A DNA stretch of 64,000 nucleotides, from the NCBI GenBank assembly GCA_963930775.1, contig OZ005697.1, forward strand, positions 7,958,292 to 8,022,291. Reading direction: 5' to 3'. Position 1 is the stretch's first letter; every line of letters begins with the position of its first letter. Shown one piece after another: positions 562-64,000 of this stretch. The notes under the pieces were generated by a model, which saw only the letters and a program-made list of their open reading frames with translations, made no database searches and was not told the origin of the DNA. The DNA is from Cliona cf. orientalis (Eukaryota; Porifera; Demospongiae; Clionaida; Clionaidae). The translations under genes and the position numbers were made by a program.

Positions 562-1628
562 ATGCCCTCTCTGAGTCTCAGTATCTCTGCTGTTTTTGTA
601 CTCAGCTTGACATTCTATTCTGGGTTTCATTGTGGAGGAGGTATTATCATTCAAATAGAATACCCTAGCTATAGCACATTGCGGCATTTATTATGATCCC
701 ATCAACTGTAGGTGAATGCAACTATTTATATGACACAGTTCCAGGGTCATCAAATGACACTACTTGTACTGTTGCTGAACTAAACACTGTCTATTTCTCC
801 TGTGTAGTCTATGACAGATGCAATAGCATCAACATACTATGGTACAAAAGCAGAAATGTAGGAGAGAGCATCGACCGAATTATTGGAACTCCAGAGCCAG
901 GTGGTAAATTTCAAATATTCACTGTACACATACCGGCAAATAATATCAGCAGTTTGGCTGGTTACTGCTCTACTGCATCTTTTCTAGTTATTAACAATTT
1001 TAATAATGCTAATGATCGTGGCTACTACTGGTGTCAGATTTTGGCCAATGGAAGTCTTTTATTGTCATCTCCACGTGGATATGTAGCATTGAAATTGGAA
1101 GGTGATCGTCCGTGTGGTAATGGTGATTTTAACTACTACTTGAGCCCACGTCTGTGTGCTGAGTATCCAATATTAACGGAACCAATTACCACTACCTCTA
1201 CTACAATGGTGCTAACATCAAAATCTACACAGAATGAATACAATGAATCGTATTCATTGAGAACCACCAATACTTCAAGTGGTACCACAGAAATTCTTAA
1301 TCCGGGGATGAGTGAAAAAGTTTTGCTATATGGAATAGCTATTGGAGTACCCTTCTCTGCTATTGTATTTACTGTACTCGCCATACTATTATGCTTGGTA
1401 GTCACATGGTACAAGAGACAGCAAAGCCAAAGTAAGTTGCCATGTTACATTATGTTTAGATTGGTATTTTATAGCCATATTATTATTAAATTTTTTATTG
1501 CAGACAATGCAATTAAACCTCAAAAAGTAGTTGAGCTGGAGTCAAGCACAGCAAAAGAAACTGTATCAAATCCACATTATCGAAAGATCACTCGTTTGTA
1601 TACTGATAATGATCCATGCAAAGTCTGA
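562..1628 (+). CDS. R1: V-type Ig membrane receptor with shortened tail
   Basis: Predicted 307-aa type I membrane protein from exons 562-640, 712-1431 and 1504-1628; both introns are phase 1 with GT-AG ends. Exon 1 begins at an ATG that opens a hydrophobic signal peptide (about 26 residues). Exon 2 holds the Ig V-like domain: early Cys residues, a Cys in strand B, the LWYKS strand-C Trp, and NDRGYYWCQ near residue 127, which fits the V-set D-x-G-x-Y-x-C pattern. A Thr/Ser-rich stalk and one membrane helix (about residues 229-259) follow. The tail is short and keeps one Y-x-x-I site (HYRKI). The tail frame closes at 1626-1628, although receptor-like tail sequence continues beyond, so the tail is probably truncated. 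The second intron is 72 nt, a multiple of three, and has no stop, so its retention would keep the frame. Ligand unknown. Confidence 0.72.
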
Positions 1629-1990
1629 AAGCGAGAAGTCAAACAAATTTCTACTGCTTATCCAAACAGTCATTCAGAACAGTATGAAGATGAGCAAGGT
1701 TATGCTATAGACCTTCTATTGATACTATACCCATGGAAAATAAAGATAACAACTTAATGAACAAGATTTTATTAGGCAGTGCGATGTATGGAAGCTGCAT
1801 TCAGTTGAACCAGAATGTGGCATATTCTCCAAGTAGAATCTGGTCTCAAAAGCAAGACTGTTCGGTAGCAGATCAAGAGATCAATCCTTTGTTCCAACGA
1901 AATCAGAAGAAAGTTGATACTACAAGAAACCCATCACCAGAGTATGCTGAAGTTGTAAGCAAGGAGAGGTACCAGCGAATAGGAATGTAG
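1629..1990 (+). pseudogene. decayed distal tail of R1
   Basis: After the R1 stop, the same frame runs on for about 40 codons with tyrosine-rich, tail-like composition. A second frame (1733-1990) then carries PSPEYAEVV and RYQRI, which closely match the PSPTYAEL region of the R3 tail. This is best read as the former R1 cytoplasmic tail, cut off by a stop codon and disturbed by a frameshift. An unrecognised splice event or an assembly error could also explain it. Confidence 0.5.
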
Positions 1991-2836
1991 GAGCAGCATT
2001 ACTATCATATATAGTACAAGCGGATACTACTATAGTTATATCATTGATGAGCTAAATTCATACTTTTTGTAGTATAGGGCTTGTTGATTCAGAATAATAA
2101 CTCTGTTTGCTTAAAACAGTACATGCAGCATCAATAGCGGCCCAAAATTTTATGTGCAACATACAACATGACTATAATTATTGATTACTAATTGTCATCC
2201 GCTGAGTTATATGGTTTCACTTTGAAAGCTTGCACCACATCAACATTTCCATTTCTGGTCAAAGATATGCAATCTAAACTGTTTTGATCAATGATATTAC
2301 ATGTGTTTCCACAGTCTGTTAGTTCCTGGCACAATTTTCAACTTCAGTATTTCCGAGTCGGGTAAAAATAATGTTTAGTTTGTCTAAATTTTGAATAGAC
2401 CACCATGTCATAGTCTTTAGCTTGTGAGGTCAATCATAAACTTTAATGGTACCCAAACCAACCTATAAAGTTTATCTTGCATGCAGTGCCATAAATACAA
2501 TGTCATGCAAATTAGGATTATGAAATCGAGACTATAGTCAGGTTAAAATAACACAGTTAGCTATATTGACTTGCAGTATGCTAGCTATCAATAACATGGT
2601 TGAGCATTCACAGCAAATTTTGTCGGTTTAATATCAACTTTAATATCTATACCTGGTTCTGATATCTTACAAGTTTTGATTATGGAGACAAAAATGATTG
2701 TGTACATAAACAGCATGCAATGCCTGTATAATAATATTATTATTATTGTACAGCTCAATTTTCACTCAAATAATATGTAACTGTAATGCATAGAGTCTGC
2801 CGCTGATTGAAGATTATCAAGCTACAATAAAAATTA
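1991..2836. other. intergenic R1-R2
   Basis: AT-rich spacer of about 850 bp. I see no gene, tandem repeat or clear inverted repeat. It should contain the R2 promoter, but no motif can be named with confidence. Confidence 0.4.
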
Positions 2837-4120
2837 ATGGCCAAGTGTTTACGACAAAGATCTCTTGAAATTCTTCTAGTCATTACTTGTATCCTGTTAT
2901 GCTGTGGAGCTCAGGATGAGCGTAAGTACTAGTGCATAATCAGAATTGATTAATCATTAGTAGCAGTGATATATGCCACACTATAACGTTATTGTTTAAT
3001 GTTCATTACACATCAGGTGAGTGCCACTATTGGTACAGGACATTTCCAGCAACTCCATCAGATTGCTTCAAAACTAATCGAACAACAACAGTGGGTCTAA
3101 TCTGTGAAGTTGAATACAGGGCTCTAAATAGCAGTGATGATATTATTGAAGTGAGGTGGTATAGGAGCAGAGATGAAGAAGCTACTGGAATAGCAGGGGA
3201 ACTCTTGAATGACACAAATAAGTACCAACAGTTTAGAGGCGATTCAAGACTAACAAATCAAACATTCATCAGGCTGTATTACCTAGGAATACTAAGATTC
3301 AATAGCAGTGATAGGGGATACTACTGGTGCCAAATGGTGGTCAACAATGAGTCATTGTCTCCATCTCCATATGGACACCTCAATGCCGGCTATCTCTGCT
3401 CTCTTCAAGATACTATCTGCTCCATACATCCACCCATTTGTGCACAGAATACTCATACACAATACATGGCATATGGAAATGGCAGTTATTGCAGTCTCCA
3501 AGAATTTCCTGCAGCTGTCACCAGTAGGACAGCATATAGAAATACACTGGTTTATGATACCTCACAGACCACTGACAAAAGGACATTAGCTGCAATATCT
3601 CCAACAATAAGCAGGGAGAGAGTGGGCTGTGATCAATCTCGTAGTCATATCTGTGCTGCTGGAATAGCATCAGGATTGGTTGTATTCATACTATCATCAT
3701 TGATGGTGATGGTATTGTGCTTTTTCTTCCTCCGAAAGAATAGAAGACATCAAGGTACATGCTAACACAACTTTGAACCACCTATTACCTTAAAATTATT
3801 GTTATTAACTTCATTGCATAGGAAATGTGAATCTTGATACAAAAGATGTTCAGTATGACAGTATTGAAATGGAAGAAGCCCAAACTGAAGAGATATCGGA
3901 GCCATACTACTCCGAAATCACACATAACAATAACAGTGATTCTGGATATACGATGAAGCCCAATATAAGCTACAGTACTTCACAAATCGCTGGCATCACC
4001 ATCAATATCAGTGGTCATGATCAATCATTGGCAAGGGTGTGCACATGTAAATCTTCAGTTGAAGCATCGGGTAAAATTGTAAAACAAAATCAATCATCAG
4101 ACTATGAAGATATACATTGA
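2837..4120 (+). CDS. R2: V-type Ig receptor with two ITIM motifs
   Basis: Predicted 373-aa protein from exons 2837-2921, 3017-3754 and 3822-4120 (introns 95 and 67 bp, both phase 1). The signal peptide is encoded in exon 1. The Ig domain starts at ECHYWYR, has the strand-B Cys (LICEVEYR), strand-C Trp (VRWYRS) and DRGYYWCQ near residue 126. A Cys-rich then Ser/Thr-rich stalk leads to a membrane helix at about 238-267. The 100-residue tail contains two strict ITIMs, VQYDSI and SDYEDI, plus YYSEI. In vertebrate receptors such motifs recruit SH2 phosphatases; that role here is inference. Closest relative in the window is R3. The last two-thirds of exon 3 lie in an exact tandem duplication with the following 463 bp. 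Confidence 0.82.
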
Positions 4121-4846
4121 CTATGAGCAAATCACAATATTAAGTTAACAAACACAGATTGGGAGTACAGACTTAGAAGACGAATACTAAGTACAGCATG
4201 CATTGTACATTGTGCTATAAATAACATGTAGACTTAAGCTCAGTTAATAATTATTATGACGAAAGTGGTGGTTGGTTAAAATTTTATATTTTATTGTAGC
4301 TTGACAATCGTTGGCATAATATGCACTCAGATATGAATTACTTATTAAGTTACATTTGTAGGTTTACCTGTTATACCTTTCCTCACATAACAATAACAGT
4401 GATTCTGGATATACGATGAAGCCCAATATAAGCTACAGTACTTCACAAATCGCTGGCATCACCATCAATATCAGTGGTCATGATCAATCATTGGCAAGGG
4501 TGTGCACATGTAAATCTTCAGTTGAAGCATCGGGTAAAATTGTAAAACAAAATCAATCATCAGACTATGAAGATATACATTGACTATGAGCAAATCACAA
4601 TATTAAGTTAACAAACACAGATTGGGAGTACAGACTTAGAAGACGAATACTAAGTACAGCATGCATTGTACATTGTGCTATAAATAACATGTAGACTTAA
4701 GCTCAGTTAATAATTATTATGACGAAAGTGGTGGTTGGTTAAAATTTTATATTTTATTGTAGCTTGACAATCGTTGGCATAATATGCACTCAGATATGAA
4801 TTACTTATTAAGTTACATTTGTAGGTTTACCTGTTATACCTTTCCT
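3921..4846 (+). repeat. exact 463-bp tandem duplication
   Basis: Segment 3921-4383 (end of the R2 coding exon plus 3' flank) is followed directly by a second copy at 4384-4846. I found no difference when comparing the two by eye. The second copy repeats the C-terminal codons without a usable upstream splice partner of its own. It is either a very recent duplication or an assembly artefact. Confidence 0.88.
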
Positions 4847-5712: not shown

Positions 5713-7567
5713 ATGGTGGAGTGTTTGCAACAAAGATATTATTACGATGTTCTTCTAGTCATTACTTGTTGTATCCTATTCTGCTATGGAACTCAGGATC
5801 AACGTAAGTCACCAGATTAGATATTCATTAGTAGCAATGGCATCATTCTACTATTCATTTATTAAACATCAGGCGAGTGTCACTATTGGTACAGAAGATT
5901 TCCAGCAACTCCATCAGATTGCCTCAAAACTAATCAAACAACAACAGTGAGTCTAATCTGTGAAATTGAATACAGGGCTCTAAATAGCAGTGATGATAAT
6001 ATTGAAGTGAGATGGTATAGAAGCACTGATGAAGAAACTGCTGGAATAGCAGGAGAACGAGTCTTGAATGATGCAAATAAGTACCGGCAGTTTAGAGGTG
6101 ATCCAAGACTAACAAACCAAACAACCATCAGGCCATATACGCTAGGAATACTAAGATTCAATAGCAGTGATAGAGGGTACTACTGGTGCCAAATGGTGGT
6201 CAACAATGAACCATTATCTCCGTCTCCATATGGATATATTTCTAAACCATGTTCTTTTCTAGATTTTATGTGTGTCAAAGATCCGCCACTTTGTGCACAT
6301 AACAATATGAGTGTACAATATATTGTATACTCAAATGGAAGCAACTGTTCATTACATGTAGAAGATAGCATTCTTCTCCCTACAACAACCACCACTGTGA
6401 CATCCCAAATGGTCCCAGTGTCTAGCATTCTCCCTACTATGATAACCACCATGTCCCGAACGCTTTCAGTGCCTAGTATTCCCACTGCAGAGATCGCTTC
6501 CACCATAGTTGTTTTAATAATTCTAATATCGCTCGCAATATTACTCATATTGAGCATTGTTTACTTCAAGAAGTATAAGAGTCAGGGTAAGCCAATTACT
6601 TTGGTAAGTACCATAATAACTATGATACATTTTATTATTAGGTAAAAAACCTGATTTAATCATCCACCACTGTGCAAAGATAGAACTCGAAGAATGTAAT
6701 GAAGCCAATGATATCTCAAACCCTCATTATACTGAGGTTAGAATTGCTACTGATCAGAGCCACTTACCTCCCATGCATAAAGAAACTACAGTTGCAAATG
6801 ATTCATCAGAAATGGGTGACAGTGGCTTGTCAAAAACTGAACATGGTAGTAATACATCAACCCAAGAGCATCCACATTCTGAGGCAGATCAAATAGCACA
6901 GATAAACAACAACTCTAGTGATCAAACCGAGAGCCAAGACTCACATAAGATTCAAACAGAGACAGACGTATCATCTGAGTATGCTGTTGTTGATAAAAGT
7001 AAAAAAATTTCAAGGTTACAGAGTAATGGAAGTACTGCCACAAGAGCTGATTCAGCAATGGAGAATGATCATTATGATAAGTTGAAACAAGACAGGCCTG
7101 CTAAACCCTCAGTCGCTAGTGAAGAAGGTAAAGATCAAGTAAGAGAAAAGAGTCCTTCACCAACGTATGCAGAATTATCAGTAAGGGAGAAAATTCCGAA
7201 GGTCTCAAAATATCTAATAGAAGTGAAAGTACAACAGAAGAATTATGAATTAGAGTCACATGAGTATGCAAGTATGGATCAAGAGGTCACAAAAGAAGAG
7301 CCTGAAGAGGTAGAACAGCATTATTACTACACTTTAGAAAATCCTGAAGAGAGTTGTAGTGATAGCAACGGGAAGAAAGAAATTATTAATACTGGTGAAA
7401 ATAAATACGACATGCTGCAGCAGTTCCACCATCTTATTATACACGATAAATCCGTTGCCCCTAACACAGATGAAGAGGCTGAGCTTGCTGCCACAGTAAA
7501 GGAAATAAATGCAACCCCGCTTGATTCACACCCAGAAGAAGCATATACTGACAAAGCTAACTCTTAA
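5713..7567 (+). CDS. R3: V-type Ig receptor with long multi-tyrosine tail
   Basis: Predicted 576-aa protein from exons 5713-5803, 5873-6586 and 6642-7567 (introns 69 and 55 bp, phase 1). Signal peptide and Ig domain are closely related to R2 (ECHYWYR start, VRWYRS, DRGYYWCQ near residue 129). A Thr-rich stalk and a membrane helix at about 234-263 follow. The tail, about 310 residues, is acidic and hydrophilic and carries one strict ITIM (SEYAVV) plus HYTEV, HYDKL, TYAEL, YYTL and KYDML, so it could offer many SH2 docking sites. R2 and R3 thus have similar ectodomains but unrelated tail lengths, pointing to tail exon exchange or loss. Confidence 0.82.
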
Positions 7568-8751: not shown

Positions 8752-10385
8752 ATGTGGTTCATCAGAGCCTTAGTATCAGCATTTTGCCTCGCTGTGGTGA
8801 CGGGATTCAATTGCTCAAGTGAGTTACCATTATTAGTATGCTTGGCATTACAATTATTCAAACAATCTATGTGATCAAGTTTAAATTTCTTCTACAGATC
8901 AGTGTTGTTATTACTATCATGGTGTACCAGCAAATGTCACCTCAATGCAATGCAATCCTGATGGCAATATCGTAAACTGGGAGTGCCAAGTCTACAGCCC
9001 CCATGATCCAGGCTCTAACCTTTCTGTGAAATGGTACAGGAGTGTGTCAGTGGTGTCAGTTAGAGAGGAAGGAGAATTGATAACTGAAAGGAAGGGAGGA
9101 AGGTACACTTTCTCAGTTACACGTGCTACATCACCTGTCAACGACAGCCAGATGATAGTCAATGGTCTGTTTTTGGACCTCTTTCAGCTTACAATCCACA
9201 ACTACAACAGCAGCATTGATGGTGGTTACTACTGGTGCCAAATGGTGATCAACGACACTATCTGCCTGCAGCCATCAGATATTGGACGCATACCACCAAG
9301 CTCTGATCCAACGAGGAGCTGCTCGTTCAATTCATTCGCTTTTGTTGACTTTGAGATGCCACGGGTGTGCGCTATAAGGTCATCATGCACAAGGGAAGTA
9401 ATGATCACTGATTCGGCAACAAGTACACCAAGCCAGGGACAAACAGCAAGCTCAAGTCTTGGCACAACTTTTACAGCTAGTAATGCAGATATTGAGTCAG
9501 AATCTGGGGCAATGGCTGTGGCACTCTATGCTGTCATTGGAGTACTAGTGTTCGTCATTGCTATCCTTTTGATAATTATTGTGGGCTTCGTTGTGCACAC
9601 TCTCCGAAATCACAGCCTGAGGGTGTATGAGGTGAAACAGCAACGTAAGTGATCTTTATCCATGCACTTGTAGCTAGTGTCTCACAGTACCTAGCAGCTG
9701 CATGTGTTTATTTTGCAATTAATTCTTATATAGGTGATCATGAGCTCAGAGCTGTAAAGGATCCAAGTCCTCGCCCAGTGTCTGAAGTACATAATCAGTT
9801 CACTCAAACTGGTGATGATGACACAGCATTAGAGGTCGCTCACAGATCAGGTAAGCAGGATCATACATGTGCCTAAATACAGTAGTAGGACCTGGGAAAC
9901 GCATGACATTGTTGATGCAATGTAGCTAATTATTTGAATTACCAACAGAGTGGACGGATACACTTCCAAGTGCACGCCCAGTCAAGGAAGGAGTACCTCC
10001 TCCAGATAGCAGTCCTCCCCTCCCCCCGGCAAGTACACACCACCCTGTCCATCCAGGAGTACCCCCTCCAGATAGCAGTCCTCCCCTTCCTCCTACAACT
10101 CCAGATCCCACAGATACCACTGATACTACTGATACCACTAAGCCTTCAGAACTGATGAATGAAAATGCAAAACAGCTTTCTCGCTTGTCTTCAAACAATG
10201 GATACGCTCATCCACAGCCACTCTCGAAGTCTCGAGGTGGTGCCAAATCATCTCCAGCCTTGGTGGGGAACACAAAGTATCAAGATATCCGACTTAGCCG
10301 GCTCAATTATGAACATATGTACAGTGTGGCTACTAACTCAAAGAGAAACCCAAATTATGTTAATGTACCTAATAGTAAAAGTTAA
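8752..10385 (+). CDS. R4: V-type Ig receptor with proline-rich, Grb2-like tail motifs
   Basis: Predicted 455-aa protein from exons 8752-8818, 8898-9644, 9734-9850 and 9949-10385, all junctions phase 1. Signal peptide in exon 1; exon 2 begins with the family's NQCCYYY and has the strand-C Trp (VKWYRS), GGYYWCQ and a membrane helix at about 225-256. It groups with type B by its start and WYRS/WYK region. The last exon contains two copies of PPPDSSPPLPP (SH3-ligand type), a short Asp/Thr repeat, KYQDI, NYEHMY and a terminal NYVNV whose Y-x-N form suits Grb2-type SH2 domains. It has no strict ITIM. The tail therefore looks more adaptor-recruiting than inhibitory (inference). A partial copy of the last exon lies at 42615-42845. 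Confidence 0.82.
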
Positions 10386-12927: not shown

Positions 12928-15268
12928 ATGATCAAGATGGCTCTGCTTATCTTTGTGTTTCTGGTGTTTGGTGACATTTGGGCCAGGATTGAGAGCTATG
13001 GTAGAATTGCTATGTATTGTAGCTAGATTATGAAATGATAATGGTTACTATCCATGTAGATCAGTGTTGCTACTCATATGGTTCAGTTCCACACAATGAG
13101 AGCAATAGTGTTCCAGGAGGGACTGTATTCAGTCTTAATGGCATAATCTACCATCCTCGCGACGTGTACACCAATTTGACAGTCAAATGGTTTAAATCCA
13201 ATGCTCCGCTCACAGGAGTGTCAGCAAGGCCTGAAATGATCCCTGACAATCATAGTGACTACAACTTCTCAAGGCAGGAATTTAATTCGACTAGAAACTG
13301 TATTCAAGGTCCATTATATCGCGATACCTTCTCTTTAAGGATTCAGAACTTTACCACGGACAAAAATGGCTACTATTGGTATCAACTTTTTATCAATGGT
13401 TCATCATATCAGCCATCACAGTATGCTTGGTTTTATGCAGATTATGACTTACATACACAAACTCAAGGTCATTTTAAACGTGCTGATGAAATTCAGTGTG
13501 CCAATGCCACCTATCTTATGACCAGTCCGCCAGCAATGACAACCACCTTACCGATTAATGTTACAGTGGGACTAACATCAAAAGCAGCACCAAAAATAAC
13601 CAAGACAGGCAGTAATCCAGATTACGCCAATGCTACCTACCCCATTACCAGTCCTCTAGCAACGATCGCCACTATTCCAATAAATGCTACAATGGATCCT
13701 GGACCAATGTCAACAGCAGCACCCAAAATGACTGAGGTGGACAATATTCCAGTTTACGACAATGCCACCTATCCTATTACCAGTTCTTTGGCAACGATAG
13801 TCACCTTTACAACAAATGCTACAATGGATCTAATGTCAACAGTAGCAGTAAAAGTGACTGAGACGGGCAGTATTCCAATTTATTACATCATTGGAGCATT
13901 AACCGTGTTTATCATTTTAGTTGCAACACTGGCAATCATAATGTTGGCAGTATTTATACATAAAAGACACAGAGAGCACAGACAGAAAACAGGTGAGTCC
14001 TTTGCATGTCAAAATATAATATTATGGATATTTTTTTTATAATTAGAACGATCTAGATCAGGTGCACCTGTACACAAAAACGTTGATCCTGTGTAAGTTT
14101 CATTATGGGTTTGTACTATCAATTTACTATGAATTTTATTCCATAATAATATTATTATAATAGTACATCCAACTTAGACTCAGCTGGTGTTCACTCCCAA
14201 GTACTAGTTCCACTATGCACTTCAGATTCAAGGGAGGATGACACATACAGTATTGTGAGTGATAAGAATACAGACCCTCAACAGGTTCATACATACGATG
14301 CTACTGAGTTTCACAATCAGACAAGCAGCACTGAACAATATTACAATACATTGCAACATGATAGTGCCACAAGTATTCCAAAGTGGTCAAACTGTAGTAC
14401 AATAAGTTTATTCGACACTTACAAGAAAATTGGTGCAAATAATACTCCAATCAATGATGCTCACAATCGTTCTAATGTTTGTAAATTAAGAGGCACTCAT
14501 AGGACGGATTCAGAAAGTGAATACGATGTTGTGGAAGACAGCCATACTGAGAATGTATTAAACCAGCCCTCTATTGGTGTAAGTGGGACTAATAAGATGA
14601 TACCACAAGATTATGAGCCAGTATATTGTTATGGATCCAGCAACACACAAACTATAGAGCTTACTGGAAAACAAATGCTTTTCGATGATGAAACATATGG
14701 AGCACATAGAGCAGCTATACAACTAAGAGTGGATGGGAGTGAAGACAAACCCAATTCTGAAGCAGTGAAAGAGGAAACACCAATAGCCAACAAGGAAGTG
14801 CAATATGCTGAGCCACTGACACCAAATGACAAAAATCAAGATGTGCAAGCTAAAGGTGAACATTTCTATCACAGTCTTGAGCAAAACAAATCAGCAAAAT
14901 TTAATATTGAGAAATGCATCAGCGGTTATACAATGGATGAAGCAGGTGTTACAAATGCTCCAATATCATTCAACTTGGACCATTGTGAATTTGATGACCC
15001 TATGTATGAAGGTATCCCTCATTCAGTACCACAACAGATAAGTATTAAAAATCCTTCATTGAACAAAATGCATCATGAGGCATCATGTATTGGGGATGTG
15101 AATGCTAATCCAGATATGCTTAGTGATGAGGAAGACATCAACACACCAGGATACAGTGATCCCACTATTCCAGTTTATCTGGATGACACTAAAAATGTGG
15201 CCAATGACCGAGAAGACACAAGGCTTAGAGTGAATATTTATGATATGTTTGATGATTCTACACTGTAG
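12928..15268 (+). CDS. A1: long-tailed Ig receptor that has lost the Ig disulfide cysteines
   Basis: Predicted 718-aa protein from exons 12928-13000, 13060-13992, 14047-14092 and 14164-15268 (last junction phase 2). A second in-frame ATG lies at 12937. The Ig exon starts DQCCYSYGSVPHN and keeps the strand-C Trp (VKWFKS). Where relatives have LNCII it reads LNGII, and where they have GYYWCQ it reads GYYWYQ, so both canonical Ig cysteines are gone. The stalk holds three Thr-rich repeats of about 43 residues, each starting NATY. Membrane helix at about 297-326. The roughly 390-residue tail has SEYDVV (strict ITIM), YNTL, YKKI, YEPV, YHSL and YEGI. Heads the first A-D-B-C block. Confidence 0.8.
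13498..13887 (+). repeat. three in-gene stalk repeats in A1
   Basis: Three consecutive repeats of about 130 bp encode similar Thr/Ser/Pro-rich segments, each beginning NATY and ending in a Pro-x-Tyr, with N-glycosylation sequons. A mucin-like spacer between Ig domain and membrane is likely. A2 has no such repeats, so the number varies within the family. Confidence 0.7.
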
Positions 15269-15956: not shown

Positions 15957-16020
15957 CAGTGGCGGATCCAGAGGGGAATCCAGGGGTGCACAGGAGCCCC
16001 CCTTTTGCCCAACCAAGAAT
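15957..16020 (+). mobile_element. short hAT-like terminal remnant
   Basis: About 60 bp starting CAGTGGCGGATCCAG followed by GGGTGCA-type and C-rich sequence, resembling ends seen on many hAT-family elements. Blocks 2 and 3 lack it and have about 330 bp of other sequence here, so it marks an insertion plus deletion. No transposase is present. Confidence 0.4.
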
Positions 16021-16430
16021 TGAGTCTGTGCATACTTCATTGGTAACAATGTAGAGAAGTGATCGTCTACTAATTTACGTTTTGGGAGTACACTTCTGCT
16101 CATTATATTAGTTGGAGTAGTGGTTCTATATACTTTTATTGGTACTATTATTTTATGCGCACAAGAAAACCAGTAAGTCATGTACAGCCAGTACAATTGT
16201 CTACATTGTCAAGTAATTACTATACTTTGCCATAGATGAGCTGTGCTCTAGGGAAGCCATGTCTAGTCATACAAAGAATGAGCAGAGTGTCACAGCTGAG
16301 TAAGTAATAATAATAATATCATTATTATTAATATTTGGCCACATTCTAGATGATCTGATCTAGTGTTATATTGAACACATATTGTGCAGATTTGAGCAAG
16401 AATACAATGAAATTTGTACTAAAATTTAAA
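16021..16430 (+). pseudogene. D1: decayed transmembrane and tail exons without Ig domain
   Basis: Matches D2 and D3: a membrane-helix exon ending in KKTS, a small exon (about 16233-16300) and the first codons of the tail exon. The membrane part has lost several codons. The tail exon is cut off soon after its start by a deletion joining it to sequence that lies about 230 bp further on in D2. Not functional. Confidence 0.65.
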
Positions 16431-18986: not shown

Positions 18987-19316
18987 AGTGAAGATTGAGT
19001 ACTGAATTCTGAAAAATATAAACAGTATTTAAATACTTCTGAATCAAGGAAAATATAGCAAGTACATCTATAGAGTAGGAGCAGCTGCAGCAGTGTATTG
19101 CCAATGAAATCACTGCCAAATTACTGTGTCAAAGAATTAATACATAAATACTTAGGAAAGAGACTTTATTACTATGCATCTGCTACCAAGGAGAAAAAAA
19201 AAAACATGACATTGCGTATCAGGCATGCAGGCTATTCAGATATTACATGGCTTTTCTCCTTGATATCTCATGATAATAATTATTATACCCAATAAATTAA
19301 TTCTATTTTAACACAG

Positions 19317-19554
19317 AACATCAGTATGGAGTCACTGCTGATCGAGTAAGTTTGTTACCTATAGTATTTTGGCACACTTATCAATCTTACACATTATAAA
19401 ACAATCATGAAAAATTATTAGACTTGAAAACCAGGAATAACATCAGTACAGACAGAACTCAGTCTACAGCTATGGAGGGGGAAAGCCATGAATATCAGAC
19501 AATGAAATGAATTATGAAAGTATGTATGCCAAGATTTTGCCAACAAAGAAGTAG
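19317..19554 (+). pseudogene. C1 remnant: type C tail exons
   Basis: Sequence of the small type C exon (HQYGVTA) and of the last exon ending NYESMYAK, with deletions that remove the YDDI and YQTL parts. No Ig exon precedes it; the DNA before it belongs to the B1-C spacer. It is the 3' remnant of the first block's C gene. Confidence 0.65.
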
Positions 19555-19828
19555 AAAAATTGTTGATTTATGCTGTAATACTAAGTATTAACAATTGAGT
19601 ATTGAATAGATTCAGTTTCAAATGCATTCCATGGAGAGTAGCGATAAAACTATTCACAGTTTGTGAGTTGAATGATAAATTTTTCTACTAAAACTAGCTA
19701 AAATATTACAAACGTTATGCTAGCATGACATAGTCACATGCTACCTACCTTACTAAGGAAGAATTGTGTATGAGGGTATAATAATAGATGAGTCTACAAG
19801 CATCTGGTAGCCATCATTAGAATCGAAA

Positions 19829-20030
19829 ATGGATCTAGTGAAGAAATTGTCACTGATGTTCACACCTGCATGACAGCAATTTTTAACAAGAGCTCTGAGT
19901 CAGTGCAATGGTATAGTATTGCTTAGAAACAATTGTGGTAATAATTATGGTATATTGCTTGTATTTAGAACTAGATGAGTGCTGTTCCAGCTATGCATTC
20001 CCTGAAATGAAACTTTCTGTGTTCCAAATA
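19829..20030 (+). pseudogene. C1 remnant: type C signal and start of Ig exon
   Basis: An exon beginning MDLVKKLSLMF (19829-19910) is interrupted by a stop, then an intron and the start of an Ig exon (LDECCSSYA). After about 60 bp it jumps into 3'-flank sequence of the same gene type (GAGTAGTGATAAAGC), so most of the gene is deleted. Apparently produced by recombination between neighbouring C units. Confidence 0.65.
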
Positions 20031-20748
20031 GAGAGTAGTGATAAAGCTATTCACATTTTGTGAGTTGAATGATAAATTTTGCTAACTAGCTGAATTACAA
20101 ACATTGTGCTAGCATGGCTCAGTCATGTGCACCTGAAGAGGGTTCTGGTACTGTTCTCTTTAGGAGTAGGAGGAGGGCACCTGGCTATGTCGCTTTATAA
20201 ACTGAAAGTCTCTGTGTTATACCTAAATTGAATTGCCGTATGCACTTGAGAGCCACTGCCTGTTTATACACTATCACTGCATTGATAACTGACCAGCAAA
20301 GCACAGAATGGCAATCAATCAGTCATGTAGCTGAAGTAGGTGTCGTGTAAATGCAGACTGGCAACAGCTGCACACTACTACACCACTGGGCACCTTTATG
20401 CCGAGTATACCTCAAATGTGTACTTTCTCCCAGATAATCCTTACCATTTAGCACAGGAGGGTCCAGACGGACGGACAGAAGGCACAAATACTCATCTGAA
20501 TTGAGGATTTATATAGGCTGGTTTACATAGTGTCATCCAGCATCGAGTAAACATTCACCTTTAAGTGTTTTTGATTACCACTAACAATTATTTCAAAGTT
20601 CATATTGACTGGCACTCTGCATGTATACTCTTTCATTGTAGGTTTTCCTCATGAAAGTTACATTCAATGATTGCATATTAGAATCAGCAGGTACATGTAT
20701 CTCAAAACATCATAGCCATGCACGAACTCAACAAATCAAGCGAACAAG
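20031..20748. other. spacer before A2
   Basis: Holds type C 3'-flank sequence, about 350 bp of unrecognised sequence, and one copy of the dispersed 3'-flank repeat (20491-20700). No gene seen. Confidence 0.45.
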
Positions 20749-41696: not shown

Positions 41697-41768
41697 AACC
41701 CTCGCCGCAAAGCGTAGGTGGAGGGGTTACTGTAATTGTTTGGCGATTTTTGTCCATCTGTCTGCCCA
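41697..41768 (+). mobile_element. end fragment related to the AACCCTCGGCGC element
   Basis: AACCCTCGCCGCAAAGCG, then a short spacer and GTCCATCTGTCTGCCC, match the end structure of the element at 30912-31449 in inverted sense. The rest is missing where the R5-like fragment begins. Confidence 0.45.
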
Positions 41769-42634: not shown

Positions 42635-42845
42635 GCATCAAGACATCCGACTTATAATTAGCCAGCTGAATTATGAATATAATTATATACAGTGTGGCTA
42701 CTAACTCAAAGAGAAACCCAAATTATGTTAATGTACCCAATAATAAAAGTTAATTATAATGCAGTAGTTTTAACTGATATATTATATGCAATTCTGAATT
42801 TTAATATGCTATCACAAATTAATGATAATGTATGCAATAAACTTG
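42615..42845 (+). pseudogene. R4-like last-exon fragment
   Basis: Matches the end of R4 (10,258-10,500) including the codons for the KYQDI, NYEHMYSV and NYVNV regions, with small insertions breaking the frame, and continues into the 3' UTR to the AATAAAC. A leftover of a larger duplication containing R4, R5 and an A gene. Confidence 0.75.
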
Positions 42846-43512: not shown

Positions 43513-45909
43513 ATGATGACTCTATTAACTGTTCTGCTGCTTTTAGCTACTGAGTGGCCTATATCTGAGAGCAATGGTATGGAAAGTTTTATCATTTATA
43601 GGGCCACGTATAATTTGCTTATCATGGGCTCATAATTATTATAGATCAATGCTGCTATTCCTATGGATCAGCTCCACACAATGATAGCAACTGTGTTCCC
43701 AAGGGCACACAACTCTATCTTCGATGCATCATTCACAATCCTCATGATGCTTTCACCCACTTATCAGTACAGTGGTATAGAGGTGATGATAATGCACAAG
43801 AAGAGATTGCTAATATCCAAAACTATACGGACTCTGGATACGCCTTTATACGATACAATCAGGCAATGTCAAGCCTACGAAGGAACTGTACTCCTCTTGT
43901 ATGCAGATACATTTGGCTTGGTCATAGATAACTTTACCATGGACAAAAATGGCTACTACTGGTGTCAAATTCTTATTAATGACTCCTTCCTAAATATTAA
44001 CCCCTCACAGCGTGCTTGGTTCTATGCAGAAGAAAGCAATTCATGTGTACAAGGAGTTTTATATTATAACACATCTGGAGCACAATGTGCATTAGGTAAG
44101 CCGGTAAGAAATTCTAATAATAAATATTACTTCAATAACTACCATTCTGATCATCAGCTCAACCACAATACCAATAGACAATCATACTAACGCAGTTACA
44201 ACCAAAATGTCATTGACAACCACTTCACTGAACCATCCTACTGCTGCAATGTCTACAACCTCACTAGATGATCATAGTAATGCAGTAACCAAAATGTTTA
44301 CCTGGACTTCACCGAATTATCCTACTAATGTAGTAATAACTGCTACTGAAACAATGTCTATCACCTCACTAGGTGATCATACTAATGCAGCAATGTCTAC
44401 TACTTTACCAAATGACACAGTAAGCGTTACAATGGATTTAATGTCAACAGTAGCATCAAAAACGACCAAGACGGGCATTATTCCAGTTTATTATATCATT
44501 GGAACATTCACAGTGCTTATAGTTTTATTTGTAATGCTAGCAATCATAATATTGCTGAAGTTTATACATAAAAGGTATAAAGAGATTGGGCAGAAAACTG
44601 GTGAGTCCTTAGCATGTCAAAAATTAATGTATAATTGCTTGACGGCCATTTTTTTATATTATTTAGAGCAATCTAGATCAGGTCCACCTATACATGAGAA
44701 CATTGATCCTGTGTAAGTCACATTAAGGGCTTATAGGTTCATATGCTAATTTATCATGAGTTAATTATTACATAATAATTATTATAGCAATACGTCCAAC
44801 TTAGATTTAGTTGGTGTTCACTCCCAAGTACTAGTTCCACTACGCACTTCAGATTCAAGGGAGGATGACACATACAGTATTGTAAGTGACAAGAATACAG
44901 ACCCTCAACAGGACCATACATATGATGCAGTTCAGTTCAACAATCAGAATAGTAGTGATGAACAATCACAGTATAATACTTTGCAACGTGAGAATGCTGT
45001 AAACATTCCAACTAGGTCAAAATTTAATAACAGCACAATAGAGTTATTTGACACTTACGAGAAAATTGGTGCAAATGATACTACAATCAATGATGCTCAC
45101 AATCGTTCTAACGGATGTCAATTAAGAGGTACTTATAGGATGGATTCAGAAAGTGAATATGACATTGTGGAAGACAGCCATACTCAGAATGCATTAAAAC
45201 AGCCCTCTGCTGGTGTGAATGGGACAAAATTTAATAAGATGATACCACAAGATTATGAGCCAATATATTTCTATGGATCCAGTACCACACAAATAAAAGA
45301 GCTCACTGGAAAACAAATACTTTTCGATGATGAAAGATATTATGGAGCACATAGACCAGTGCCTAGGAGAGCAGCTGTACGTCTAAGAGTGGATGGGGTT
45401 GAAGACAAACCCAGTTCTGAAACAGTGAAGGAGGAAACACCAATAGCCAAAAGGAAGTGCAGTATGCTGAGCCACTGACACCAAATGACAAAGGTCACAC
45501 TCAAGATGTGCAAGCTGAAGATGAACATTTCTATCACTGTCTTGAGCTAAACAAACAAACAAATGCTGAAAAATACATCAGTGGTCACGCAACGGATAAA
45601 GGAGGTGCTACAAATGCCCCAACACCATTCAATTTTGATCACTGTGAGTTTGATGACCCTATGTATAAAGGCATCCCTCGTATGGTACTAAAGCAGACAA
45701 ACAGTACATTGAACAAAATGTATCATGATAATAATATTGCATTTCCAGAGGAGGTATCATGTATTGGGGATGTGAATGTTCATCCAGACATGCTTAGTCT
45801 CGAGGAAGACAACAATACACCAGGATACAGTGATCCAGATTGGTTGGATGACACTAACATCTCCAATGGCCAAAAAGACACAAGATTTAGAGTGGATCGA
45901 CACGTTTGA
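43513..45909 (+). pseudogene. A3: type A receptor, R5-like ectodomain and A1-like tail, frameshifted
   Basis: Exons 43513-43576 (signal, two ATGs), 43645-44095 (Ig, DQCCYSYGSAPHND to GYYWCQ), 44178-44600 (stalk and membrane helix), 44667-44712 and 44788-45909 (tail). The Ig exon loses frame near 43,900, between the NCTP and YADTF parts. The tail loses frame near 45,450, where one base is missing relative to A1 (PIANKEVQYAEP). The tail has SEYDIV (strict ITIM), YNTL, YEKI, YEPI and YKGI. Apart from two one-base shifts it is complete, so either a young pseudogene or sequencing error. Ectodomain nearest R5, stalk to tail nearest A1. Confidence 0.7.
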
Positions 45910-47840: not shown

Positions 47841-48164
47841 GACTAGCGTTGAACCCAGGCCCTTTGAGGGGGAGGAGAAAGGACCTGGTACCTATTGCAC
47901 ACCCATGCGCCAACTACCCCAAGAAAACTTGGGGTACTATGAATGATTGTACGCTTTATTGCCCTCTTGCTGCGGCCTATAGGGTACAAAGCTACACCAA
48001 TGTGACATCGCTTCGTACCCTACGCACGGGAGGCCCGAGGAGAGCGAAAAAGCATACAGTCGTTTGCGGCACCCCAACTTTTCTTGGGGTAGTTGGCACA
48101 TGCGCATGCAATAAGTACCAGGCCCTCTTTCTTCCTCCTGCCAGGCCTGGGTACAAGGCTAGTC
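47841..48164. mobile_element. MITE with long terminal inverted repeats
   Basis: Ends GACTAGC...ACCCAGGCC and the inverse GGCCTGGGTACAAGGCTAGTC. The inverted arms are about 85 bp and include GGCCTGGTACTTATTGCA and CCAACTACCCCAAGAAAA. The 150-bp centre is non-coding. Confidence 0.8.
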
Positions 48165-50834: not shown

Positions 50835-50841
50835 TACTCAC

Positions 50842-51751: not shown

Positions 51752-53808
51752 ACTGGTCAGTTACGTACATACAGAGACACACTGGTCAGTCGACTTAGCT
51801 GTTTATCAGCAGTTACACTGTTCAATTACGGACATGACACACTGATCAGTCGACTTAGCTGTTTATCAGCAGTTACACTGTTCAGTTACGGACATACAGA
51901 GACACACTGGTCAGTCGACTTAGCTGTTCATCAGCAGTTACACTGTTCAGTTACGTACATACAGAGACACACTGGTCAGTCGACTTAGCTCAGTTACGTA
52001 CATACAGAGACACACTGGTCAGTCGACTTAGCTGTTTATCAGTAGTTACACTGTTCAGTTACGGACATGACACACTGGTCAGTCGACTTAGCTGTTTATC
52101 AGCAGTTACACTGTTCAGTTACGTACATACAGAGACACACTGGTCAGTCGACTTAGCTGTTCATCAGCAGTTACACTGTTCAGTTACGTACATACAGAGA
52201 CACACTGGTCAGTCGACTTAGCTGTTCATCAGCAGTTACACTGTTCAGTTACGTACATACAGAGACACACTGGTCAGTCGACTTAGCTGTTTATCAGCAG
52301 TTACACTGTTCAGTTACGGACATGACACACTGGTCAGTCGACTTAGCTGTTTATCAGCAGTTACACTGTTCAGTTACGTACATACAGAGACACACTGGTC
52401 AGTCGACTTAGCTGTTCATCAGCAGTTACACTGTTCAGTTACGGACATGACACACTGGTCAGTCGACTTAGCTGTTTATCAGCAGTTACACTGTTCAGTT
52501 ACGTACATACAGAGACACACTGGTCAGTCGACTTAGCTGTTTATCAGCAGTTACACTGTTCAGTTACGGACATACAGAGACACACTGGTCAGTCGACTTA
52601 GCTGTTTATCAGCAGTTACACTGTTCAGTTACGGACATGACACACTGGTCAGTCGACTTAGCTGTTTATCAGCAGTTACACTGTTCAGTTACGGACATAC
52701 AGAGACACACTGGTCAGTCGACTTAGCTGTTTATCAGCAGTTACACTGTTCAGTTACGTACATACAGAGACACACTGGTCAGTCGACTTAGCTGTTCATC
52801 AGCAGTTACACTGTTCAGTTACGGACATACAGAGACACACTGGTCAGTCGACTTAGCTGTTTATCAGCAGTTACACTGTTCAGTTACGGACATGACACAC
52901 TGGTCAGTCGACTTAGCTGTTTATCAGCAGTTACACTGTTCAGTTACGTACATACAGAGACACACTGGTCAGTCGACTTAGCTGTTTATCAGCAGTTACA
53001 CTGTTCAGTTACGGACATGACACACTGGTCAGTCGACTTAGCTGTTTATCAGCAGTTACACTGTTCAGTTACGGACATGCAGAGACACACTGGTCAGTCG
53101 ACTTAGCTGTTCATCAGCAGTTACACTGGTCAGCTACGTACATACAGAGACACACTGGTCAGTCGACTCAGCTGTTCATCAGCAGTTACACTGTTCAGTT
53201 ACGTACATACAGAGACACACTGGTCAGTCGACTTAGCTGTTTATCAGCAGTTACACTGTTCAGTTACGGACATGACACACTGGTCAGTCGACTTAGCTGT
53301 TTATCAGCAGTTACACTGTTCAGTTACATACATACAGAGACACACTGGTCAGTCGACTTAGCTGTTCATCAGCAGTTACACTGGTCGGCTACGTACATAC
53401 AGAGACACACTGGTCAGTCGACTTAGCTGTTTATCAGCAGTTACACTGTTCAGTTACGTACATACAGAGACACACTGGTCAGTCGACTTAGCTGTTCATC
53501 AGCAGTTACACTGGTCAGCTACGTACATACAGAGACACACTGGTCAGTCGACTTAGCTGTTCATCAGCAGTTACACTGTTCAGTTACGGACATGACACAC
53601 TGGTCAGTCGACTTAGCTGTTTATCAGCAGTTACACTGTTCAGTTACGGACATGACACACTGGTCAGTCGACTTAGCTGTTTATCAGCAGTTACACTGTT
53701 CAGTTACGTACATACAGAGACACACTGGTCAGTCGACTTAGCTGTTCATCAGCAGTTACACTGGTCAGCTACGTACATACAGAGACACACTGGTCGGTCG
53801 ACTTAGCA
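51752..53808. repeat. satellite of alternating 65-bp and 60-bp units
   Basis: About 33 head-to-tail units built on ACTGGTCAGTCGACTTAGCT, GTTTATCAGCAGTTACACTG, TTCAGTTACG. Long units end GTACATACAGAG and short units end GACATG; T or C in GTTYATC is a second variable site. One unit near 51,980 lacks its middle. Each unit contains the palindrome AGTCGACT. Long and short forms are interspersed, often alternating. Confidence 0.92.

Positions 53809-54348: not shown

Positions 54349-54405
<57 letters not shown>
54349..54405. repeat. (TG)n microsatellite
   Basis: About 28 perfect TG dinucleotides. Confidence 0.9.
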
Positions 54406-54410
<5 letters not shown>

Positions 54411-54929: not shown

Positions 54930-55262
54930 AGTGTTGCCAGGTTGATACATTGTGTACTTCTTGGTATTGTTATCCCTATTTCATCCTTCAAATGTGTTTT
55001 TCTGTAACCATTACATTATTATGATACAATACAAGATGGTCTATATATGATACTGAAAGATCCGAGAATATTTGTCATGAGCCTTAAATTTGTAAATTCA
55101 GTGAAGAATAACATAATTACTTGGTAATTGGTGAATGGATTTTGCTACTTGCCATTTTTACCTAGTGTAAAAAGCTAAGGGAATAGCCAGGCCATTGACT
55201 GCGTAGCCGCACACAACCAAGATTGAATTGAGTCTGTGCATACTTCTGAATCATCAGTAACA

Positions 55263-55761
55263 ATGCAGAGAAGTGATCGTCTACTTATTTATGTTTTGGG
55301 AGCCTTTAGTACTCTTCTGCTCATTATATTAGTTGGAGTAGTGGTTCTACTTTTATTGATACTATATTATGCGCACAAGAAAACCAGTAAGTCATGTACG
55401 GCCAGTATAATTGTCTACATTGTCAAGTATAATAGTAACTATATTTCGCCATAGATGAGCTGTACTCTAGGGATTCCGAAGTCGTGTCTAGTCATACAAA
55501 GAATGAGCAGAGTGTCACAGCTGAGTAAGTAATAATAAATATTATCATTATTACTAATAATATTATTTGGCCACACTCACTCTAGATGATCTGATCTAGT
55601 ATTATATTGAACACTTATTATACAGATTTGAGCGAGAATATGATGAAATTTGTACCATCCAAGAGAGAGTGGGTGAAAGAGAACATTCCGAATATCAGGC
55701 ATTGAATCTTGGTGAGATGAATGATGAAAGCATTTACATGAGAGTTATGGCCATAAAGTAA
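55263..55761 (+). CDS. D3: candidate 109-aa membrane protein with ITIM tail
   Basis: Exons 55263-55386, 55455-55524 and 55626-55761 give the same length and layout as D2. The tail again has YDEI, SEYQAL and SIYMRV. Only a few codons differ (for example NELY against NKLY in the small exon). The upstream 200 bp are near-identical to those of D2 and include no Ig exon. Same alternatives as for D2. Confidence 0.4.
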
Positions 55762-59735: not shown

Positions 59736-60950
59736 ATGGGTCTAGTGAAGAAGTTGTCAATGATGTTTATAATAGTCATCTGGATAACAGAGTATTTGAC
59801 AAGAGCTCAGTGCAATGGTACAATATTATAGTATTGGACTGGTAATATTGAACATAATTACGTTATTACTTGTATTTAGAATTGGATGAGTGCTGTTACA
59901 GCTATGCCTCTGTTCCTCGCAATGATACTTTCTGTGTTCCAGAGGGAGAACAAGTGGACCTCCACTGTGTGATCAACAATCCCCATGATAATTTCACAAA
60001 TCTAACAGTGACGTGGTTTAGAAGTACAACAGAGGACATGTCAGAATTTGATGAAATACCTGCCACATCTGAAGAGTACAGATTTAGTAATTTTATTTCA
60101 GGCAGTTCATTATCACTGATTAATTGCAGTCATGAGATATACAGAGATACCTATTCACTACTAATCCTTCACTTCACCCAACATAATAATGGTTACTATT
60201 GGTGCCAGCTTTCCATCAATAATACACTAGTACAGTCTTCTCGTCGAGCTCATTTCTCTGTTGGAGACTGTAACATTACAAATCAAGGTTATTATAGGTT
60301 GGCAAATTTAAGACTCGGTGAGAACAGATGTGCAAAATATGTGGCCACTGAATCAGATACTGGTTTGACAACAAAACTTAATTACGAATCACCTAGGATA
60401 TTTTCTGTTACTTCATCATTAACACAATTATCCTCAGTAACAGTGCAGAATGTAGCCACTGAATCAGATTCTGAATCATCCACAAGATTGTCTTCAGTAA
60501 CTCAGCAGGAAAAAGAAAGTGACAGGTTAATTACTTACATAGCTGGAATCTTTAGTGCACTTCTGCTTATAGCTCTATTGGGAGTATTGGCGCTAGCACT
60601 TTCGTTTGCATCTTATGTACACTATCAAAGGAAAAAGACCAGTAAGCTGCATGAATGGAAGTAATCATAATCATTATACCCAATAAATTAAATCTATTTT
60701 AACACAGAACATCAGTGTGAAGTCACTGCTGAGTAAGTTTGTTACCTACAGTATTTTTGACACACTTATCAACCCTACACATTATAAACCAATAATTAGA
60801 CTTGAAAACCAAGAATATAATGACATCAGTACAGGCAGAACTCAGTCTACAGCTACGGAGGGGGAAAACCATGTATATCAGACATTAAAGCTGAATGAAA
60901 TGAATTATGAAAGTATGTATTTTTTTTTTTTTTTTTTCAAGGCGACCTGA
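59736..60950 (+). CDS. C3: type C Ig receptor with C-terminus replaced by an insertion
   Basis: Predicted 339-aa protein from exons 59736-59817, 59880-60641, 60708-60732 and 60800-60950. Signal MGLVKKLSMMFIIVIW. The Ig domain (LDECCYSYASVP, LHCVIN, VTWFRS, NGYYWCQ), Cys-pair segment, stalk with ATESD repeats and membrane helix (about 244-272) are intact. The tail keeps YNDI, YQTL and YESM. Right after NYESMY an element inserted, adding FFFFFFKAT and a stop in place of the AKIMPTKK end, so the strict ITIM (SMYAKI) is lost. The remaining codons lie at 62,011-62,030. Confidence 0.8.
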
Positions 60951-62361: not shown

Positions 62362-63695
62362 ATGGATCGAGTGAAGAAGTTGTCACTGATGTTCACAGTG
62401 CTCACCTGCATGATGGCAGAATTTTTAACAAGAGCTCAGTGCAATGGTATTATAATATTGCTTAGAAAAATTGTGGCATTGTAGTTACTTGTATTTAGAA
62501 CTGGATGAGTGCTGTTACAGCTATGCCTCTGTTCCCCGCAATGAAACTTTTTGTGTTCCAAATGGAGAACAAGCCCTGCTCAACTGTGTGATTATCAACC
62601 CCCATGATAATTTCAAAAATCTGACGGTGACGTGGTTTAGAAGTACCACAGAGGACATGTCAGTATGTGATGAAGTATCTGCCACTTCTGAAGAGTATGA
62701 TTTTTGGTACTTCGTTTCAGGCTGTGTAGATAATTCATTATCAGTGATTAATTGCAGTCATGAGCTATATCGAGATACCTTTTTTCTAACAATCCTTAAC
62801 TTCACCCAATATAAAAATGATTACTATTGGTGCCAGCTTTCCATCAATAATACACTAGTACAGCCTTCTCATCGAGCTCATTTTTCTGCTGGCAATTGTA
62901 GCATTACGAATCAACCTTATTATAGATTAGCAAATTTAAGACTTAGTGAGAACAGATGTACAAAATATTTAGCTACTGAATCAGATACTGGTTTGGTAAC
63001 AACTTGTGAATTGTCTGGGACATCATCAACAAGATTGTCCACAGGAACACAGTAGGAGAGAGAAAGAATTACTTTTGCAGCCACTGAATCAGATGCTGGT
63101 GTGACAACAGCTTACAAATCACCTAGTATTACAAGATTCTCCCTAGCAACACAGCAGGAGACAGAAAGTAACAAGCATATTACTTATTACGTAGCCACTG
63201 AATCAGATGCTGAATCATCAACAAGATCGTCTTCAGTAACTCAACAGGAGAAAGAAAGTGACAGGCTAATTATTTACATAGCTGGAACCTTTAGTGCACT
63301 TCTGCTTATAGCTCTATTGGGAGTATTGGTGCTAGCACTTTCGTTTGCATCTTATGTACACCATCAAAGGAAAAAGACCAGTAAGCTGCATGGAAGTATT
63401 TATAATTATTATACTCAACAAATTAAACCTATATAATATTATTTTAACACAGAGCATCAGACTGAGTGTGGAGTCACTGCTGAGTAAGTTTGTTATCTAT
63501 AGTTATTTTGGCACACTTATCAATCCTACATAATATTATAACTATAGACTTGAAAACCAGGAATATGATGACATCAGTACAGGCAGAACTCAGTCTACAG
63601 CTACGGAGGGGGAAAACCATGTATATCAGACATTAAAGCTGAATGAAATGAATTATGAAAGTATGTATGCCAAGATTATGCCAACAAAGAAGTAG
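62362..63695 (+). pseudogene. C3b: type C receptor with one stop codon in the stalk
   Basis: Exons 62362-62446, 62499-63380, 63453-63483 and 63548-63695 are in register throughout. One TAG at 63,053-63,055 replaces a Gln codon present in relatives (TQQE). Signal, Ig domain (LDECCYSYASVP, NDYYWCQ with D for the usual G), membrane helix and tail (YDDI, YQTL, YESM, SMYAKI) are otherwise undamaged. The predicted product is a 213-aa secreted Ig protein; the full frame would give about 381 residues. May be a null allele, a soluble form, or a sequencing error. Confidence 0.6.
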
Positions 63696-63968
63696 AAATT
63701 ATTGATCACAAATTTGTGCTGATAATGATTTATGCTGTAATACTTATCAAACAATAGTATTGAATAGATACAGATTCAAATGCATTCCACAGAGAGTAGT
63801 GATAAAATTATTCACAGTTTGTGAGTTGAATAAATTTTGCTACTAAAATTAGCTACACTGTGCTAGCATGGCACAGTCACACTACCTACCTTATAAGGAA
63901 GAATTGTGTAATAATATTGTATAAAAGATAAGTCTACAAGCACCTGATAGTCATCACTAGAATCTAAA

Positions 63969-64000
63969 ATGGATCTAGTGAAGAAGTTGTCACAGATGTT
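63969..64000 (+). CDS. next type C gene, first codons only
   Basis: ATGGATCTAGTGAAGAAG starts the signal exon of another C gene, preceded by the conserved 5' flank. The window ends within it, so the cluster continues. Confidence 0.6.
   Translation, partial: MDLVKKLSQM

Follow-up and report, generated by a model that had tools for sequence, protein, structure and literature searches.

Does a tandem array of immunoglobulin (Ig) receptor genes in a sponge assembly represent a germline recognition system comparable with the paired receptors of vertebrates? This question is raised by a stretch of 64,000 nucleotides (hereafter the window; positions 7,958,292 to 8,022,291 of GenBank contig OZ005697.1, assembly GCA_963930775.1, entered under Cliona cf. 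orientalis), in which 16 V-type Ig exons were identified between approximately 711 and 62900, every one of them on the + strand. The intact genes are predicted to encode single-V membrane receptors with tyrosine-rich tails. Our preferred answer, to which we assign a probability of roughly 0.6, is that the cluster consists of germline recognition genes resembling paired receptors and signalling via SH2 proteins.

Organization of the receptor cluster

The V exons were detected using a V-domain profile seeded with eight of the window's own exons, which match by construction, against the full set of 1970 segments from both strands that lack a stop and span 20 or more residues. The V exons start near 711, 3016, 5872, 8897, 10828, 13059, 17742, 20894, 25769, 27725, 30012, 33188, 43644, 57494, 59885 and 62504. 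Twelve of the 16 each lie within one segment (E 1.4e-54 to 1.1e-36; eight of the 12 are the seeds), while those of the copies P1, P2, B3 and P4, owing to a disrupted frame, were recovered in two or three parts. On the - strand, only three profile matches were obtained (E 0.14, 0.22 and 0.74). A truncated V start within 19784-20034 was missed by the profile and found through self-comparison, and a weak profile match at 63706 (E 0.095) was rejected as part of repeated intergenic sequence. Since a D-type leader exon begins at 63969, of which the first codons (63969-64000) lie within the window, the cluster continues past the window end. The sequence-only reading of this DNA had counted at least 17 related units on one strand, which is correct once fragments are included (16 V exons plus remnants, all on the + strand).

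Six genes could be spliced to complete open proteins with GT-AG models: R2 (2837-4120, three exons), R3 (5713-7567, three exons), A1 (8752-10385, four exons), B2 (20749-22743, with two possible tail acceptors), A2 (25641-27025, four exons) and D2 (29875-32747, four exons). Each model consists of a hydrophobic leader, one V domain, a stalk, one helix and a tail, in a predicted type I topology; leaders and helices were assigned through hydropathy and by eye. In the preferred models, the leader exon is split from the V/stalk/helix exon by a GT-AG phase-1 intron of 50-95 bases. A donor for this intron from the allowed list was obtained in 13 of the 15 copies tried (B and P4 had none, and P2 was outside the set), with alternative choices possible in five of the 13 (P1, B2, D1, D2 and D3). 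D2 contains a 25-base mini-exon and a last intron of 1750 bases, which places its tail near 32.6 kb. Taken together, the profile, Pfam, splice models and hydropathy confirm the layout of signal exon, V-type Ig domain, stalk, one helix and tyrosine-rich tail that had been proposed for each unit. At R2, two exact head-to-tail copies of 463 bases were observed (3921-4846), the first spanning the end of the tail exon; these either arose by duplication very recently or are an artefact of assembly.

Prediction of the Ig fold

At E <= 0.01, Pfam V-set recognized 12 of the 13 V domains (best 1.2e-8). When nine Ig exons were scanned whole, two passed Pfam's own cut-off and R1 showed no V-set match at E <= 1; the evidence for V-set from single sequences thus appears moderate. 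No second Ig or sushi stretch was found in the nine main exons scanned with Pfam. A profile of the 13 domains matched 98 distinct PDB sequences at E <= 1, and among the 60 listed were BTN2A1 (4.3e-5, across the domain), CD8 alpha (1e-4, second half) and pIgR (3e-5 as a sum over repeated domains, no single one of which passes).

The structure prediction that had been suggested as a check on the Ig assignment gave an Ig fold for both V domains modelled. The V domain of D4, modelled by AlphaFold2 with an alignment of 13 paralogues, reached a predicted local distance difference test (pLDDT) score of 77.4 and a predicted template modelling (pTM) score of 0.76, and matched 388 PDB entries at E <= 0.001, with the shark IgNAR V domain at the top (5.8e-6; template modelling score 0.51 by query and 0.74 by target). 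The V domain of R3 (pLDDT 79.6, pTM 0.76) gave 18 PDB matches at E <= 0.001, mainly antibody-complex entries, plus PD-1, Axl, PTP delta and LRIG1. A search of a viral structure library yielded 24 matches at E <= 0.001, including pox- and herpesvirus Ig-like proteins; the spliced gene cluster gives no ground for regarding the window as viral. Pattern searches for V-domain relatives returned three stretches in genome contigs and 31 in viral contigs, none of which was confirmed.

The core Trp is present in all 13 V domains, and the B- and F-strand cysteines are both present in 10 of the 12 compared. A pattern peculiar to the family comprises CCY close to the N terminus (replaced by ECHY or ECNY in the R genes), a third cysteine, the core W and GYYWCQ, and the V domains carry N-glycosylation motifs. 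The V exon of B (13059-13450) is open, yet the two cysteines of the core disulphide and one N-terminal cysteine are gone from it (of the family pattern, both core cysteines and the third one), and in B2 the B-strand cysteine is replaced, the sole core cysteine lost there. These losses may reflect either a stepwise loss or relaxed constraint.

Tyrosine motifs of the tails

We analysed six representative tails (1069 residues, 49 tyrosines), each taken as the longest open segment, with the middle tail exons of A1 and A2 uncounted. The motif YxxI/L/V occurred 23 times, compared with 7.5 ± 2.5 after shuffling, a number reached in none of 5000 shuffles, and was commoner in the tails than in six ectodomains used as controls (14 among 61 tyrosines; Fisher p 0.014). 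The strict immunoreceptor tyrosine-based inhibition motif (ITIM), with T allowed at -2, was found seven times in the six tails against 2.5 expected (reached in 61 of 5000 shuffles), and seven times in the six ectodomains also. A wider scan with the same definition covered 21 tail segments, several of which came from broken copies or paralogues and some of which may contain intron readings, and gave 17 strict ITIMs against 6.9 expected (1 of 2000 shuffles). In its narrow sense, an ITIM has S, I, V or L at -2. The strict ITIMs claimed from sequence alone for a list of copies including A1 and A2 hence stand as an excess over shuffled tails, but as many occur in the six ectodomains, and in A1 and A2 the residue at -2 is T, which the narrow definition does not admit. 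In our view, the weight rests on the enrichment of YxxI/L/V and the conservation of motifs rather than on strict ITIMs.

Conservation was assessed among the long B-type tails. Between B and B2, all seven motif tyrosines were kept, compared with five of nine other tyrosines and 139 of 287 other residues (motif tyrosines versus non-tyrosine residues, Fisher p 0.007). The corresponding values were 7/7, 6/10 and 245/329 for B and B3, and 7/8, 5/8 and 159/297 for B2 and B3. The D tails share, with small changes, QEYDDI, HVYQTL, NYESM and SMY(S/A)K(V/I), and their YQTL-x6-YESMY(S/A)K(V/I) module looks more like a hybrid of ITIM and immunoreceptor tyrosine-based activation motif (ITAM). Among the complete genes, R2 carries VQYDSI, PYYSEI and SDYEDI, R3 has a tail of 307 residues with six YxxI/L/V, A1 has a proline-rich tail with TKYQDI..NYEHMYSV..PNYVNV, B2 a long tail with eight YxxI/L/V, A2 TQYQGL..DPMYANLPI, and D2 QDYDDI..HEYQTLKLNEMNYESMYSKV. 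The term 'ITIM tails' should, as far as the motifs indicate, give way to a description of the tails as rich in docking motifs of the form YxxI/L/V, of which some are ITIM-like, the spacing in the D copies being ITAM-like.

Block duplication and a mosaic gene

The order B, V-less D remnant, A, D was found three times, at 12.9-20.0, 20.7-29.6 and 43.5-63.7 kb, the third block being interrupted by 46.5-54.9 kb. The V-less remnants, each a helix/tail piece of D type detected by self-comparison, lie on the + strand at 16010-16430 (unit I), 23879-24424 (unit II) and 55214-55758 (unit III). The recurrence of this order, with approximately 75-92 % identity in the main aligned stretches between blocks, indicates that multi-gene blocks were duplicated.

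The D3 copy (33041-35219) is a mosaic of a D-type leader, V domain and stalk with a B-type helix and a long tail. Its DNA is D2-like over the leader exon, V, stalk and up to the helix start (32960-33782, 77 % identity), and the ectodomains of D3 and D2 are 77 % identical over 145 residues. The break lies near 33782, at the helix start. Beyond it, the helix clusters with that of B2 (bootstrap 100 in a short-alignment tree; 46 % identity and 3.7e-12 over the stalk end and helix), and the B tail is matched by the second part of the D3 tail (3.7e-7). Two tails without detectable similarity thus bear one kind of ectodomain. Paired receptors are marked by similar ectodomains on different tails, and D3 and D2 provide a single case of near-identical ectodomains on different tails, in which one gene is broken. 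The mosaic, as aligned here, is new in this analysis. A mosaic history of D5 was also considered and is not claimed, as supports in the tree were 46-83 apart from the node joining the helices of D3 and B2.

Broken copies and selection

Seven of the 16 V genes are broken before the helix. Indels of 2-10 bases account for P1 (10685-12453, a small V deletion shifting the frame, with a B-like tail piece), D1 (27588-29611, a stalk frameshift, the tail exon carrying YQTLKLNEMNYESMYAKI), D3 (frameshifts in stalk and tail), B3 (43513-45909, one frameshift in V and one in the tail) and P4 (57360-58733, A-type, V in three pieces, tail open). In-frame stops account for P2 (17610-18999, start approximate; A-type, with the stop in V and small insertions downstream) and D5 (62362-63695, with the stop in the stalk and a tail exon carrying YQTLKLNEMNYESMYAKI). 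Besides these, the end of the tail is gone in D4 and the tail of R1 is short. Single-base sequencing error was rejected as the source, since the lesions are indels of 2-10 bases or stops and lie, by eye, outside homopolymers; the broken copies may be null alleles or assembly faults.

The ratio of non-synonymous to synonymous substitution rates (dN/dS) was calculated for chosen open stretches as whole-domain averages, with P4, P1 and the V domain of B3 left out. It was 0.34-1.01 for the D V domains (10 pairs) and 0.11-0.23 for the D tails (six pairs). For D2 and D4, the sole pair with open V exons, it was 0.42 in V and 0.12 in the tail. The other values were 0.31 (R2-R3 V), 0.35 (A2-P2 V), 0.44 (B-B2 tail) and 0.35 (part of the B-B3 tail). 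Three D helix pairs exceeded 1 on one or two synonymous changes each and were not used, and the A1-A2 V (dS 2.1) and B-B2 V comparisons were near or past saturation. By these estimates, the D tails are more conserved than the D ectodomains; a V-versus-tail test of the very few changes between D4 and D5 gave p 0.53. No sign of positive selection between paralogues was detected in the whole-domain dN/dS of the D V domains (10 pairs).

Comparison with known receptor systems

The paired Ig receptors of vertebrates (SIRP, PIR/LILR, CD300/pIgR-like and PD-1-like) resemble the window's genes in their V-type Ig domain, one helix and YxxI/L/V tails, in their tandem clusters with broken copies, and in bearing similar ectodomains on different tails; BTN2A1, CD8 alpha and pIgR are alike by profile, and PD-1 by fold (R3). 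In contrast, none of the six complete models has a charged residue in the helix through which an adaptor could pair, the cysteines are arranged in a way peculiar to the family (CC or EC close to the N terminus, the third Cys, GYYWCQ), and the tails reach approximately 370 residues with many tyrosines; the homology shown lies within the V fold. Among sponges, the Ig receptors of Geodia cydonium (a receptor tyrosine kinase and an adhesion molecule) are likewise Ig-domain proteins tied to adhesion or recognition; to our knowledge, they do not form a tandem cluster with YxxI/L/V tails. Passages of PMC11999971 mention one Geodia adhesion molecule.

The Hydractinia Alr genes, as described in parts of PMC11999971 and PMC12065747, also form a cluster and encode Ig receptors in which V-set domains are combined with ITIM/ITAM-type tails; compared by description, Alr proteins have V-set plus I-set domains, whereas the main exons of the six complete genes of the window have one V-set stretch each, and their spliced models leave no apparent space for a further domain. 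Botryllus FcoR, according to sections of PMC12065747, combines a V-type Ig domain, a helix and a long tail with ITIM, hemITAM (half-ITAM) or core YxxI/L/V motifs. Unlike the nine main exons of the window as scanned with Pfam, FcoR also has sushi and two C2 Ig domains. The same 2025 review states, in the sections concerned, that the proteins put forward as allorecognition candidates in sponges, cnidarians and ascidians show no conservation, yet that convergence on the same ITIM/ITAM-type signalling is seen in systems ranging from cnidarians to mammals. The main text of an Amphimedon grafting study (PMC5450542) contains none of the terms immunoglobulin, Ig domain, Ig-like, allorecognition gene or tyrosine in a term search. 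A literature search by title and start of abstract, mostly outside subscription papers, found no description of such a cluster in a sponge, and its novelty is provisional. The resemblance to immune or allorecognition loci asserted by the sequence-only reading is thus borne out in architecture, that is, tandem, pseudogene-rich, single-V type I receptors with phosphotyrosine-motif tails, with a putative use as such a locus.

Proposed function and rival explanations

We propose that each intact gene would give a type I membrane protein whose single V domain recognizes a ligand carried by a microbe or by another cell. Upon engagement, Src-family kinases would phosphorylate the tyrosines of the tail YxxI/L/V motifs, and SH2 proteins would then dock on them. 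The long multi-tyrosine tails (R3, B and B2) may serve as docking platforms, probably inhibitory (through SHP-type phosphatases) or mixed, and the short D tails (YQTL-x6-YESMY[SA]K[VI]) may form an ITAM-like or ITIM/ITAM hybrid module. The cluster would grow by duplication of multi-gene blocks, lose copies and allow ectodomains to move from one tail to another, whereby a single binding specificity could be coupled to different outputs. A recognition role, immune or allorecognition, is what we infer, together with the ligand, the cell type, the phosphorylation and the SH2 partners.

Several observations weigh against this proposal. By count, strict ITIMs are in no excess in the tails (7 of 49 tyrosines, compared with 7 of 61 in the ectodomains); since ectodomains match equally often, the ITIM string alone proves little. 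The canonical ITAM (YxxL/I-x6-12-YxxL/I) occurs in D1 and D5 alone among the 21 tail segments, two such copies are reached in 131 of 2000 shuffles, and both are broken genes. By eye, none of the six complete models has a charged residue (D, E, K or R) inside the helix, and there is thus no sign of an activating partner that uses an adaptor. The first part of the D3 tail (33979-34638) has no convincing match to the B, B2 or D2 tails, and as D3 is now broken, the mosaic shows history rather than a working pair. The broken copies D1, D3 and D5 were part of the D sets used for dN/dS, and only 1-7 synonymous and 1-5 other changes separate the D tails. Finally, the structural matches of the D4 model include I-set domains, that of Lrig3 ranking second, so that the V type is not fixed by the fold search alone.

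The strongest competitor, which we rate somewhat below even odds, is that the genes encode innate receptors for microbes or symbionts and have no part in self/non-self discrimination, the V domain binding microbial or particle ligands and the tails tuning phagocytosis. The expansion with broken copies also fits pathogen-driven receptor families, and parts of PMC6208332 report that the expression of Ig-domain genes shifts after exposure to microbial products in two sponges; against this, no positive selection is seen when averaged over the V domain. An allorecognition complex such as Hydractinia Alr or Botryllus FcoR, in which polymorphic V domains would read self on neighbouring cells, seems to us unlikely, though not negligible. 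It would share the kind of locus, clustered Ig receptors with ITIM- or hemITAM-type tails being described for Botryllus and Hydractinia in passages of PMC12065747, and the ectodomain/tail mosaic of D3 would suit it, but dN/dS in V is at most 1 except for one pair (1.01), and each protein has a single Ig domain.

A family of adhesion or developmental receptors with no immune role is, in our estimation, slightly less probable still. Single-pass Ig proteins with tyrosine tails also serve as adhesion molecules, and the sponge Ig superfamily is described chiefly as adhesive in sections of PMC11999971, but copy turnover, with seven of 16 copies broken, and tail swapping would in our judgement be unusual for adhesion genes. 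The array might also be decaying with little function left, its open frames being recent survivors and its tail motifs inherited. The broken fraction (7/16), the short tails of D4 and R1 and the missing V disulphide of B point in this direction, but dN/dS below 1 (R2-R3 V, A2-P2 V, the B-B2 and B-B3 tails, and the D tails at 0.11-0.23) and the six complete spliced genes argue against it, and we regard such decay as improbable.

The recognition genes proposed here might further form a sponge paired-receptor complex of V-type Ig genes, with ectodomains and signalling tails exchanged between neighbours, an extension that we advance only tentatively and with less belief than the microbial alternative. 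If true, germline recognition of the ITIM/ITAM type would date back to the root of the animal tree, and sponge allorecognition would gain candidate Ig receptors. If the cluster is poriferan, the convergence on, or origin of, ITIM/ITAM signalling would extend to sponges, and concrete genes would be available for comparison with the results of grafting. With its ectodomain/tail mosaic, the cluster would be an example outside vertebrates of evolution in the manner of paired receptors.

Other copies and features of the window

The remaining copies and fragments are likewise on the + strand. R1 (562-1628) has a leader exon, V, stalk and helix, its tail ending approximately 41 residues past its apparent start with the motif PHYRKI, and additional motif-bearing sequence extends out of frame to 1990. 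In B (12937-15268), the V-to-helix exon and the long tail exon, with seven YxxI/L/V, are each open; its stalk (13500-13882) contains approximately three copies of a 126-base unit (74 % identity) and is thereby longer. A D remnant (19273-20034) comprises the tail exon of one D gene followed by the truncated beginning of another (leader exon and V start). Self-comparison also revealed a B-like (P1-like) tail fragment at 41764-42014 and an A1-like tail fragment at 42624-42843. D4 (59736-60950) is open from V to helix, and its final tail residues are replaced, the SMYxK motif being lost; the replacing sequence (60918-60950) starts at a poly-T run and is perhaps an insertion.

Within the receptor cluster, 37219-39369 contains a single-exon gene for a class C G protein-coupled receptor similar to GABA-B1 (Pfam 7tm_3 1.5e-19 and ANF_receptor 5.4e-17; nearest solved protein GABA-B1, PDB 5e-12), and such a predicted receptor is consistent with an animal genome. 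Pattern searches for its relatives gave 20 stretches in genome contigs, none confirmed, and no match in viral contigs. A minisatellite with a 65-base unit, and also a 190-base period, occupies 51752-53807 and has open frames on the + strand. Two imperfect self-inverted repeats of approximately 320 bases were detected at 40409-40728 (78 % identity) and 47841-48164 (72 % identity), and are possibly palindromic transposon-like elements.

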